Assembly: GCA_903824855.1 (NCBI GenBank) | Contig: CAIJYI010000040.1 | Location: 1 to 32,532, forward strand | Direction: 5' to 3' | From: an uncultured bacterium | GTDB taxonomy: Bacteria > Patescibacteriota > Minisyncoccia > Phycocordibacterales > CAIJYI01 | Length of the DNA: 32,532 nucleotides | Shown here: piece by piece, positions 3,717-10,350 of the stretch | Numbering within the stretch: position 1 is the stretch's first letter | Layout of the letters: every line of letters starts with the position of its first letter | The notes under the pieces: model-generated | The model's database searches: none | The model's input: the letters and a program-made list of their open reading frames with translations, nothing else | Told to the model about the DNA's origin: nothing | Made by a program: the position numbers and the translations under genes

Positions 3717-4931
3717 ATGGATACGAACATACCGCAAAAGAAAAATTCAACAGATACTCAACCCCTGGATATTCAAAACCGGGTTCCTTTGGGTGTGCCA
3801 CAAAAAGAAAAAACGTCTTACACTCCTTTAGATTTACAAAATAAGCTTTCTACAGCAAAAGATTTTCAGATACCCAAAAAACCAGAGCCTCCAAAAGAAC
3901 AACCACAAATAGCCGCTACCGGACGGGTAGGAGATTCCCAAAATATCCAAAATAAAGAGCTCGGATGGAAAACCCTTACGCCAACCATAGATATCAAAAC
4001 AGCAGAAATTACTCCTGAAAAGAAAAATGAAATAAAAAAACCCTCCCCAAAACCAGACCTGGAAGATCTTTCCTCTGTCGAGAATATTCGCACCTACAAA
4101 AAAGATGTCGCCGGAGCAATAAAAAACCAAAAAACATCCCTCGTTAGAATGGTTTTAGAGGAACAGCGCGTTCGCCAAGCAAAAGAAACAAACGAGTCAC
4201 CAAAATCAAGAAAAAACTTGCCGCTCATTCTTTTTTCTCTTGTTTTTCTCATGCTTTCCTCCGGAATAATATATTATGCATTTTTTCGCCCGATTACTGA
4301 CAGTGCAATTTTAGCAGGTTTGAAAATAACTCCGCTTATCCAGACTGAAAAAATGAAGGAAATTGACGTTACCGGAAAGACAATAAAGCAACTCACGAGT
4401 CTCGTACAAAGCTCATCGGATGCCAACAGTCTAAAATTAGACACTCTTGAATATATCTATTTTGTTGAAGATTACACTACCCAGTCTGCTTCTGGTCCAA
4501 TAGTATCAAAAAAAATAATTGGGGTAGACAAGCTTTTTGAAGCACTCGGCATCATTGCTCCGGCAGACTTTCTTCGTTCGTTACAAAGCGATTACATGTT
4601 TGGTATTCATAATTTTGTAAAAGGTCAGAAATTTCTCGTTCTAAAAACCGATTATTATGATACGGCATTTGCCGGTATGCTTAATTGGGAAAGTACCTTA
4701 CTTAAAGACATATACCCTTTGTTTGGGGTAAAACCGAATGAAGATTTAGGTGGCAGATCGTGGGTGGATGTTGTTACAAAAAACAAAGACACGAGAGTCT
4801 TGAAAGATTTCAATAATCAGACCGTTTTAGTATATATGTTTAAAGACCAAAATACTTTAATTATCAGCACATCAGAGGGAACTCTTTTTGAGATATCAAA
4901 CCGCATAGACCTCCTTCGTGAAAAAAAATAA
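3717..4931 (+). CDS. Hypothetical protein: disordered Pro/Lys-rich N-terminus, one TM segment, extracytoplasmic C-terminal domain
   Basis: ORF of 404 aa; NLPLILFSLVFLMLSSGIIYYAFF hydrophobic segment. Confidence 0.85.
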   Translation: MDTNIPQKKNSTDTQPLDIQNRVPLGVPQKEKTSYTPLDLQNKLSTAKDFQIPKKPEPPKEQPQIAATGRVGDSQNIQNKELGWKTLTPTIDIKTAEITPEKKNEIKKPSPKPDLEDLSSVENIRTYKKDVAGAIKNQKTSLVRMVLEEQRVRQAKETNESPKSRKNLPLILFSLVFLMLSSGIIYYAFFRPITDSAILAGLKITPLIQTEKMKEIDVTGKTIKQLTSLVQSSSDANSLKLDTLEYIYFVEDYTTQSASGPIVSKKIIGVDKLFEALGIIAPADFLRSLQSDYMFGIHNFVKGQKFLVLKTDYYDTAFAGMLNWESTLLKDIYPLFGVKPNEDLGGRSWVDVVTKNKDTRVLKDFNNQTVLVYMFKDQNTLIISTSEGTLFEISNRIDLLREKK

Positions 4932-7046: not shown

Positions 7047-7718
7047 ATGAAAAAGAAATTTATTTTTGCATCAATAATTATTGCGTTAGTCGTTTTGTTT
7101 GGCGCAGGGTATGTTCTCACACGAAAGGATTCAGCAGAAAAAATACAGTCGCCGAAACAAGAACAACCGCCAGCACCAGAACAGCAAAAAACAGAAGAAA
7201 CCATAAGTATCGAAGACTGGAAAGATGAAAACCTCTTAACATGCCGAAGCGAGAAGTATGGGTATGAGTTTAAGTATCCGAAGAATTGGTATATGTATAA
7301 TCAGGAACCCGAAAGTCGCCAAAACCGTCAGTATATTGCAACTACAACTTTATGCGAAAGTATAATAATACAGATCTCTGATGCGCCTCTTCATTATGGT
7401 TTAACCAGTGACAAGAAAAAGAATATGCAAAAAATCATTATTGATGTCAGGGATCAAGGTCGGTTGTTAAAAACAATATACAAAGGAGTGACATCGCTGG
7501 AAGAGTATTTTCAAAGAAACCAAAAAATATTACAAACCAGAACGAGTGTGAAAAACGGTACAATTTCCGAAGAAAAAGTTCTCTATTCAAAAAGAACAGA
7601 CGATACTTCGGAGGCATGGATTTTTCATAAAAACATACTTTATGCAATACAATTTTCTCAAAAAACACCAACGACCTCTCAAGACGTTTTCCTTTCCAAT
7701 CTTAAATTTCTAGAATAA
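7047..7718 (+). CDS. Membrane-anchored/exported hypothetical protein
   Basis: N-terminal KKKFIFASIIIALVVLFGAGYVLT anchor, Pro/Gln linker, then a YGYEFKYPKNWYMY-type domain. Confidence 0.85.
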   Translation: MKKKFIFASIIIALVVLFGAGYVLTRKDSAEKIQSPKQEQPPAPEQQKTEETISIEDWKDENLLTCRSEKYGYEFKYPKNWYMYNQEPESRQNRQYIATTTLCESIIIQISDAPLHYGLTSDKKKNMQKIIIDVRDQGRLLKTIYKGVTSLEEYFQRNQKILQTRTSVKNGTISEEKVLYSKRTDDTSEAWIFHKNILYAIQFSQKTPTTSQDVFLSNLKFLE

Positions 7719-7730
7719 AGTACACAAAAA

Positions 7731-7756
7731 ACACCCCGCAATTGCGGGGTGTTTTG
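7731..7756. terminator. Bidirectional intrinsic terminator between convergent genes
   Basis: 22-bp perfect palindrome ACACCCCGCAATTGCGGGGTGT (7731-7752) flanked by A-run and TTTT. Confidence 0.9.
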
Positions 7757-7761
7757 AGAAA

Positions 7762-8814
7762 TTAATCCCAGAGTCTTGTGCTGTCGTGTCCGTGTCGTTG
7801 TAATGGGTCAGTATCCTTAGTGCCTGTCCAACCATAAGGATCAACCTGTAAACTATCCTCGTTTTTAACAGTGAAGTGCAGATGTCCGTCCCCAACGGTT
7901 CCAATCTCGTCTCCTTTTTGTACCGTTAAACCAATACTCTCCTCATCTCTTGAGGTCAAATGAAGATAATATGATGTGTATCCATTATCGTGTACGATTT
8001 TTAGATCATGTCGTGAGTTTCCTCCATATATCCACTCGTAATCTTGAAGCGTACCGCCTGCGGCCGCCAGAACGGGATCATTATTATCAGCAGGAAAATC
8101 ATACCCAGTATGGCCACTATAAAAAAGATAGTTGTTATATTCACCGCCGGTATAATGACCGTTTATGGTAAACACCCCTTCTCCATCTTGCATATATCCA
8201 TAAACTCCATCATCAAGCAACGAACCATACTCTTCGTCTCCTATCTCACCTGTATACGCCATAACGGAAGTACTTACACTGTCATGATCCATCACTGATG
8301 AAATATCAGCCGTATATGCTCCTCCTGTCAGTGGAAACCCAATAAAAGGAATATTCCAAATAGGAGAAGAAGGCGTACCGGTATTTATCAACTTCACCGC
8401 ATCATGCAGAGTATACACGCCTCCTGACCACGAAAAGGTGATAAACCACAAGTCACTACCATAAGGACAAGAACCCGGCTGTGTATACGACGTTTGAAGA
8501 ATATAGGAGATAGTGTCTCCTGGGTCGGCTGATTCAGACGAACTGCCGTTCACATTCATCTGAACAGAAGGAATGCCATTCGATCCGATGGGTGTAATGT
8601 AAAAATTATGGCTTGCGTCTGGATCGTCCGCAGGAGATCCGCAACCAAAATATCCCGCATAAGGGGAACCGGTCGTTTTGAATTCAAGTGTTACGTATGT
8701 CGTTCCGCCGTAATACCTCTCATCGATTCTTCCTTGTGGATATGCCGTAGCAAAAGTGTTTTCACAAAGAATTGTGAAAAACAAAAGCAAAAAACACGCG
8801 AGAAATTTTCTCAT
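7762..8814 (-). CDS. Secreted M23 family metallopeptidase
   Basis: Signal peptide MRKFLACFLLLFFTILCENTFA; HTGYDF and GDGHLHFTV zinc-site motifs; TAA stop; GAGG 8 nt upstream of ATG. Confidence 0.9.
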   Translation of the reverse strand: MRKFLACFLLLFFTILCENTFATAYPQGRIDERYYGGTTYVTLEFKTTGSPYAGYFGCGSPADDPDASHNFYITPIGSNGIPSVQMNVNGSSSESADPGDTISYILQTSYTQPGSCPYGSDLWFITFSWSGGVYTLHDAVKLINTGTPSSPIWNIPFIGFPLTGGAYTADISSVMDHDSVSTSVMAYTGEIGDEEYGSLLDDGVYGYMQDGEGVFTINGHYTGGEYNNYLFYSGHTGYDFPADNNDPVLAAAGGTLQDYEWIYGGNSRHDLKIVHDNGYTSYYLHLTSRDEESIGLTVQKGDEIGTVGDGHLHFTVKNEDSLQVDPYGWTGTKDTDPLQRHGHDSTRLWD

Positions 8815-8845
8815 TTTTATTGCCTCATTTTAAAGAACAAAGTAA

Positions 8846-8893
8846 AGTATCCGTCCTCTTGGATACTGTTTGTTGGCGAATTTATTCGACAAC
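8846..8893 (-). other. Two consecutive hairpins in the predicted 5' UTR of the M23 peptidase
   Basis: AGTATCC-8 nt-GGATACT (8846-8867); GTTG(g)CGAA-TTTA-TTCG(a)CAAC (8872-8893). Confidence 0.5.
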
Positions 8894-8900
8894 TTTTCGG

Positions 8901-8928
8901 AGTTTATCAGTGGGGGGGGATAAGTCAA
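8901..8928 (-). promoter_or_regulatory. Predicted M23 peptidase promoter, TTGACT-16 bp-(TGA)TAAACT, with a C8 homopolymer in the spacer
   Basis: - strand: TTGACT tatCCCCCCCCactga TAAACT; -35 at 8928-8923, C8 at 8919-8912, -10 at 8906-8901; TGn extended -10. Confidence 0.6.
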
Positions 8929-8966: not shown

Positions 8967-8993
8967 AAAGGCGGAGCACTTTGCTTCGCCTTT
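8967..8993 (-). terminator. Intrinsic terminator downstream of the NRS/ER-like gene
   Basis: AAAGGCGGAGCA-CTT-TGCTTCGCCTTT (one G-T pair); on the - strand it is followed by TTTTTTATT. Confidence 0.75.
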
Positions 8994-9004: not shown

Positions 9005-9889
9005 TTATAACACTTTATTATTCAAGTTCTCTTTATATTTTCGCAATATTTCTTCAAGTCGCTTTTTGTTGAGCGCAGGCATAATAATTCCGAGTTCTTT
9101 TGCTTTTACATTTGAAAGAACGCAATTACTTCGTTTCGCTTTGGTTATTCCGCCCGGACCCTGGAGTGCTAAAAGAGAAATAATCTCATACGTATGTGTC
9201 GGGTCAATAATTTTTTTATAGGCCTCCAAAACGTGGCCATTATCTATATATCCGTCATTGGTCAGATTGAGTATTCCCGTTGGTTTTTTTTCCATCAGTA
9301 CTTCAAGCGCCGGCCAGAGATCATCTAAATAAGTTACTGAATTCGGAATTGAAATGACACGGTTGTATCCTGCAATTTTATTTATGAAATTTCTCTTGTG
9401 GGGAATAGAGGATAGTGGCATACGAATACGCGCCTGTAAAACAGGAAGTTCTTTTAGTGCATCTTGCATGACAACTCTCATTCTGGAATAAAAACTCCCG
9501 TAGAAATTCGGTTTGTCTTCCTCGGTGAAAACTTTTCTCTTTCCTCCTTGATAAATACATCCCGAACAAATTTGTATCGGATAAGCACCGCAAGATAAAG
9601 CAGCGGTCATCGCATTTATCGCACCCACGACATTAACAAGCGCGGTTTCTTCTTTGTGGTCTTCACACCAATCAACGGTGGGATAGGCTTTTGCTCCCGC
9701 ACAATTAATGACAACATCAGGTTTTATTTTATTGAACATCGTTGTGAGCGCCGAAAAATCCGAAAGTTCAATGCGTTCATGAAACACGGTATAACCGCGA
9801 GATTTCATATATTCCAAACATAAACCACCTAAATATCCGGACGAACCCAATATGTATATTTTCTTGTCTTTGTTACCACTTTCAAACAT
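9005..9889 (-). CDS. SDR-family NAD(P)-dependent 4-ketoreductase, NRS/ER-like (dTDP/UDP-4-keto-6-deoxyglucose 3,5-epimerase/4-reductase-like)
   Basis: Start reassigned to ATG 9889 (MFESGNKDKK...) preceded by AAGGAGG; GSSGYLGG; VDWCEDHKEETALVNVVG; KPNFYGSFYSRMR; RMPLSS..RNFINKIAGYNRVISIPNSVTYLDDLWP. Confidence 0.82.
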   Translation of the reverse strand: MFESGNKDKKIYILGSSGYLGGLCLEYMKSRGYTVFHERIELSDFSALTTMFNKIKPDVVINCAGAKAYPTVDWCEDHKEETALVNVVGAINAMTAALSCGAYPIQICSGCIYQGGKRKVFTEEDKPNFYGSFYSRMRVVMQDALKELPVLQARIRMPLSSIPHKRNFINKIAGYNRVISIPNSVTYLDDLWPALEVLMEKKPTGILNLTNDGYIDNGHVLEAYKKIIDPTHTYEIISLLALQGPGGITKAKRSNCVLSNVKAKELGIIMPALNKKRLEEILRKYKENLNNKVL

Positions 9890-10015
9890 CTTTATTTCCT
9901 CCTTGTTTCCATATCTGACTTTCAGGTTACTCTGTTTGAATTTTCTGTCAATATTTTTTGAGTAAAATTCTTTTACATATCCACAAAACACAGAGCGGCT
10001 TTTTTTTATTTGTTG

Positions 10016-10029
10016 TACAATAGTATTAC
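10016..10029 (+). promoter_or_regulatory. -10-like TACAAT 8 nt before ATG
   Basis: TACAAT 10016-10021; ATG 10030; no convincing -35. Confidence 0.35.
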
Positions 10030-10350
10030 ATGAATGAGGGCACAGAAAAAATGAGCGGGATGGCATACGCCGGCGGAATGTTGTTTGCCGCTATTATCGA
10101 CATCATTGGAATTGTCGTACCTGTTCTTGGAACCATTTTTATTGGTTTTATGAGGTTATCGTTTTGGCTTGCCGGATACGATATGAGAAACACTACAGGA
10201 ATGACCGTTACAAATGCTCTTCTTGAATCATTACCTATTGTTCCTTGCTGTATGGTCTTTATGTGGTCATCTCATAGGAAAAATGCGATTAATTGCAAGG
10301 AAAGGGAAAAAGAAATGGAGAATTCTCAAACGCAAGAGAGTTACGCCTAA
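10030..10350 (+). CDS. Small membrane protein of unknown function
   Basis: 106 aa; two hydrophobic segments (AYAGGMLFAAIIDIIGIVVPVLGTIFIGFM; LLESLPIVPCCMVFMW). Confidence 0.75.
   Translation: MNEGTEKMSGMAYAGGMLFAAIIDIIGIVVPVLGTIFIGFMRLSFWLAGYDMRNTTGMTVTNALLESLPIVPCCMVFMWSSHRKNAINCKEREKEMENSQTQESYA

Follow-up and report, generated by a model that had tools for sequence, protein, structure and literature searches.

The window, a stretch of 32,532 nucleotides from a host genome of 1.1 Mb, contains on its minus strand a gene for an M23 peptidase, and upstream of this gene lies a candidate promoter with eight consecutive C residues between the two hexamers (Table 1). PF01551 matches the protein with 52.9 bits against a curated cut-off of 28.7 (E 4e-14), the zinc ligands H235, D239, H311 and H313 are invariant in an alignment of M23 homologues (A1), and the C-terminal domain matches solved M23 peptidases in PDB, including LytM. 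The N terminus is signal-peptide-like by a simple hydropathy rule and secretion is predicted. The domain match, the zinc motifs and the N terminus are in line with the earlier note, which had described the downstream gene as a secreted M23 peptidase.

Table 1. Features of the M23 locus, with positions in the window
Feature	Positions	Strand	Basis
PsbP_2-like membrane protein, convergent with M23	7047..7718	+	PF18933
350-aa M23 peptidase, signal-peptide-like N terminus, HxxxD and HxH intact	7762..8814	-	Pfam, alignment, PDB
Shine-Dalgarno-like GAGG, 8 nt ahead of the ATG at 8814	8823..8826	-	direct sequence
TTTGTTCTTTAAAA, boxA-like motif of the 5' UTR (resemblance only)	8828..8841	-	direct sequence
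5'-UTR hairpin AGTATCC-N8-GGATACT	8846..8867	-	inverted-repeat and automatic scans
-10-like hexamer TAAACT (4/6), with TGA of an extended -10 just before it (8909-8907)	8901..8906	-	direct sequence, site scan
C8 tract in spacer (G8 on the + strand)	8912..8919	-	direct sequence
-35-like hexamer TTGACT (5/6)	8923..8928	-	promoter-like-site scan
Intrinsic terminator hairpin followed by TTTTTT, ending the upstream gene 9005-10066	8967..8993	-	inverted repeat, minus-strand sequence

The upstream gene (9005-10066) is NAD-epimerase/RmlD-like and shows no synteny in the genomes of the family. It has its own terminator, which an automatic scan flagged on the plus strand and which is read here on the minus strand, and the M23 gene therefore needs its own promoter. 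An Rfam search of the locus gave nothing above the gathering scores. The PsbP_2-like gene is the convergent neighbour of M23 also in three other loci, L126, L127 and L130 (phmmer E 2e-15, 4e-15 and 4e-11). The convergent pair of secreted M23 and PsbP_2-like genes (7047-8814 in the window) is conserved across Patescibacteria families, and is possibly an effector/protector pair or a co-transferred module.

Read 5' to 3' on the minus strand, the promoter-like element consists of TTGACT (8928-8923), TAT, C8, ACTGA (8911-8907) and TAAACT (8906-8901), which gives a spacer of 16 bp with the TG of the extended -10 at 8909-8908, one base ahead of the -10. Direct sequence and a site scan both confirm this layout as it had been claimed, with the C8 in the spacer and the TGn. 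The earlier note had also noticed no other 8-nt G/C homopolymer in the window, and the G8 at 8912-8919 is indeed the sole G/C run longer than 6 there; other tracts of 8-11 in the genome lie outside the window. A G-quadruplex on the plus strand, formed by the G8 and GGGAGGG, was judged unlikely because the loop of 33 nt is too long.

The element has nine of twelve consensus matches and its -10 is weak (4/6). Sites of this 9/12 type are as frequent over the surrounding 2.6 kb as in shuffled sequence (7 found, 7.5 expected), and the match alone therefore proves little. Within the 146 nt from the upstream terminator to the M23 start codon the element is the top promoter-like site, and an equally good one, by an ad hoc score, appeared in 7 of 1000 dinucleotide shuffles. 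Of C8 tracts placed randomly in the upstream regions of the genome, 4.7% land in such a spacer. With the best site of the interval and a terminator upstream, the reading of TTGACT-C8-TAAACT as the predicted promoter of the secreted M23 gene (7762-8814) holds.

Spacing was counted in the upstream regions of a 289-kb genome sample. Among pairs of -35 and -10 hexamers with at least 10/12 matches, a distance of 17 bp is the most frequent (20 pairs on the coding strand, 10 on the reverse), and at 16 bp there are five on each strand. Extended -10 sequences (TGnTAnnnT) number 90 on the coding strand and 39 on the reverse in the same regions. The earlier suggestion that one additional C would give an optimal spacer of 17 bp fits in its direction, with native pairs peaking at this distance.

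Similar promoters in other Patescibacteria

Neither the other two genomes of the genus nor the other genome of the family contains the M23 gene. No relatives of it were found in viral contigs or in contigs of single-sequence genomes, and plasmids gave only weak Rhodococcus M23 matches. The subfamily, which has a conserved VDPYG(W), a terminal LW and no LysM, is spread in Patescibacteria and scattered phyla. Homologues in the order are named Paceibacterota/Parcubacteria, and the window therefore probably derives from a Patescibacterium; most of the order-level matches cover the catalytic domain only, and no C runs of at least 6 were found upstream of the order-level matches. The homologous promoter in L127 reads TTGCAA-AGTAG-C7-ATAGTG-TAGAAT, while the best homologue of the order (L126 = G252) has T7 instead of a C tract in the promoter spacer. 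These two loci have the leader AGATTTGTTCT in common, and no C run is found upstream of the homologues in L141 and L187.

A pattern with C8 inside a TTGAC...TANNNT spacer was searched for in 297 genomes of the order and 384 genomes of the class, two samples that partly overlap. It was found in seven further loci in the former and four further genomes in the latter, compared with three and one matches for a reversed control pattern (11 versus 4 loci, p ~0.06, or 0.006 with every G393 copy counted). The gene downstream encodes a secreted CBM-like protein and is followed by an M23 gene in G281, where the M23 protein ranks among the best homologues of the one in the window; it encodes a secreted M23 in G175, a secreted PG_binding_1 protein in G050 and other signal-peptide proteins in G194, G644 and G620. 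The remaining loci precede IF-1 (G116) and a 98-aa protein (G311), have no clear gene downstream (G006), lie probably within a gene (G159) or belong to a multi-copy promoter (G393). Signal-peptide genes are thus found downstream in 6 of the 11 loci versus 20.5% of the host's leader genes (p 0.013), a secreted-gene enrichment that is qualified by the low counts, a signal-peptide rule made by hand and a grouping chosen after the fact. M23 genes or operons are driven in 2 of the 11, far above a rough expectation of 0.4%. When the -10 is chosen by best match, 4-6 nt separate the end of the C run from it in eight of nine independent loci, with 1-6 nt between the run and the -35, and TGn is present at many of the sites. 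The promoter anatomy is confirmed and recurrent.

In G393, a genome of the class, ten copies of one promoter and leader are distributed over contigs C4, C8 and C11 (L116, L226-L234). TTGACTTTT is retained in the copies, most of which also have a TAGCCT-type -10, and the main difference between them is the C run, which is C6, C8, C9 or interrupted (CCCTCCCC), with spacers of 14-19. From this sequence comparison, it is the length of the C run that differs between the paralogues. The genes after the copies include radical SAM, HisRS-like and IGPS genes. These encode cytoplasmic enzymes, and the C-run architecture is therefore not confined to surface genes. The repeated unit also carries a boxA-like motif, GTTCTTTAAAA, and motifs similar to the boxA-like TTTGTTCTTTAAAA of the window occur in the leaders of L126, L127 and the G393 copies.

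Long G/C tracts and mismatch repair

G/C tracts of at least 8 number nine genome-wide versus only two of exactly 7. All nine are contained in the 289-kb sample, which was drawn from tract-carrying contigs, and eight of them are noncoding there; order-1 and order-2 models give an expectation of 0.8-1.7 noncoding tracts of this length genome-wide (Poisson p 3e-6 to 4e-4 for the excess). Expectations from order-3 and order-4 Markov models are inflated because the sample was chosen from tract-carrying contigs, and only the two lower orders were therefore used. The two long tracts of contig C38 are a local duplication. Three relatives show no excess of tracts of at least 8 over 7-mers, with exactly-7 versus at-least-8 counts of 8 versus 5 (G001), 6 versus 4 (G002) and 8 versus 1 (G117). 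Long G/C tracts are enriched in this genome, yet several are located where no promoter effect is expected. None of the four family genomes yielded a match to the mismatch repair domain MutS_V, which was detected in 11 of 14 control genomes.

Homopolymers of A/T end sharply at 8 in the 289-kb sample, with 114 runs of 8, two of 9 and one of 10. This drop past 8 is weaker in the relatives, and the noncoding G/C runs of the present genome exceed 8.

Several individual tracts were also seen. One is a G13 between two convergent genes in the same-genus genome G001 (L058, C8:77544-77556), where a promoter effect is not expected. A G11 tract precedes a TTGACA...TAACGT promoter-like site by about 20-30 bp (L011, G000 C41:36984-36994). 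Just past the 3' side of a tmRNA gene (4477-4864) there is a C8 tract at L076:4424 (G000 C43), and a similar sequence, GGTTCAAT..C9-ATCTCCACA, is found at C4:232.

Tract variation at the M23 promoter and competing explanations

Pathogens adapted to a host offer many documented cases of phase variation. In porA the tract is a poly-G on the sense strand, unlike the C8 of the M23 promoter. For N. meningitidis promoters of the porA/fetA type a 17-bp spacer gives high expression, and expression from one meningococcal promoter with this spacer was consistently high (PMC4577077); 17 bp is likewise the native spacing peak in this genome. The poly(C) promoters of fim2 and fim3 in Bordetella pertussis resemble the M23 promoter in having the C tract between -35 and -10, and the distance between these elements sets their strength; fim3 is on with C14 and expression is abolished with C13 (PMC10172299). 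However, these promoters are BvgA-activated and the tract is far longer than C8. According to PMC3447861, which cites Sarkari et al. 1994, the N. meningitidis gene opc has a poly-C promoter causing transcriptional phase variation of a surface protein; expression is higher with C12 than with C11, and switching becomes more frequent when mutS is lost. The likeness is a poly-C in the promoter, where a single C alters expression in opc. The opc promoter differs in having 11-12 C, in belonging to a Proteobacterium, in driving an adhesin gene and in that switching has been demonstrated, whereas the present case is a candidate C8 tract before a peptidase gene in Patescibacteria. A search of the open-access literature gave no paper describing promoter-spacer phase variation in Patescibacteria.

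In a similar manner to opc and fim3, the spacer tract might be mutable and tune the transcription of the secreted M23 peptidase, a reading to which we give a little less than an even chance. The C8 tract would be prone to slippage and, in a lineage without MutS, would win or drop C residues at replication. Each gain or loss would shift the distance between -35 and -10, from the present 16 bp to 17 bp with C9, and thereby alter the level of M23 transcription, which could result in cell-to-cell variation in peptidase output. The logic of opc, fim3 and porA predicts a stronger M23 promoter at C9. We infer that variation of the tract within the population, with a function at the M23 promoter, is plausible. 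Phase variation at this promoter is supported only indirectly, by the missing MutS, the excess of long noncoding G/C tracts, the recurrence of the architecture ahead of other secreted and M23 genes, the C7 of the L127 promoter and the unequal runs among the G393 copies, and the locus is known from one assembly. Several points speak against it: C8 is short beside the C11/C12 of opc and the C13/C14 of fim3, the -10 is weak, the best M23 homologue has T7 and those in L141 and L187 have no C run, and the G393 promoter drives cytoplasmic enzymes, so that the link to surface genes is not strict.

The main rival to a phase-variable tract is a fixed C-tract/extended -10 element, and neutral slippage is next. 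In the former case Cn-x(1-3)-TGn-TAnnnT would be a structural or regulator-recognised element in some Patescibacteria, and variation in length would be incidental. The narrow gap between the C run and the -10 in eight of nine loci, with a more variable gap to the -35, is consistent with this, as are the TGn at many sites and the run kept in all copies of the G393 promoter. However, the tract varies in length (C6-C9 among the G393 copies, C7-C10 in other loci), a T7 takes its place in L126, and the spacers are scattered over 14-19 without clustering at 17. We consider a fixed element of this kind unlikely, though a serious competitor. That long noncoding G/C runs simply pile up when mismatch repair is missing, the location in the spacer being due to chance and of little effect, is somewhat more doubtful. 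The noncoding position of eight of the nine long tracts points in this direction, and so do tracts without promoter meaning, such as the G13 between convergent genes in G001, those after stop codons on contig C38 and those in hairpins on contig C45; moreover, about 5% of random placements reach a spacer. Yet C8 is found again ahead of secreted and M23 genes in different families, and the C runs cluster beside the extended -10.

It is quite improbable that the promoter does not work, M23 being transcribed from another site and the 9/12 match a product of chance, or that the tract length is an assembly error. The shuffle-level frequency of 9/12 sites over 2.6 kb, the TAAACT with only four of six matches and the single assembly would agree with such an explanation, but there is no other comparable site in the 146-nt interval, the upstream gene ends in a terminator, and the homologous promoter of L127 is laid out in the same way.

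Should the M23 tract indeed vary, slippage by itself would be enough for these minimal bacteria, most of which depend on a host, to diversify a secreted enzyme that cuts cell walls and whose target may be the host cells. A broader proposal is that, in Patescibacteria without mismatch repair, C-tract/extended -10 promoters form a widespread contingency system in which tract slippage changes how much is made of secreted cell-wall hydrolases and of other gene products. We regard it as speculative and rather unlikely; if true, the candidate phyla radiation would have phase variation at the level of transcription.

Another arrangement of tracts was observed at L005:1501-1578 (G000 contig C13:6878-6955), where a C8 directly precedes GTGATATAAT and a G9 tract follows 69 bp further on, about 11 codons into a frame opened by an ATG. 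This frame runs into a TAG immediately at G9, and a long, repeat-rich, surface-protein-like frame (P0003) runs on in another phase. No Pfam match was found for this adhesin-like protein. The locus is either a stronger candidate for phase variation than the M23 promoter or a tract-length error.
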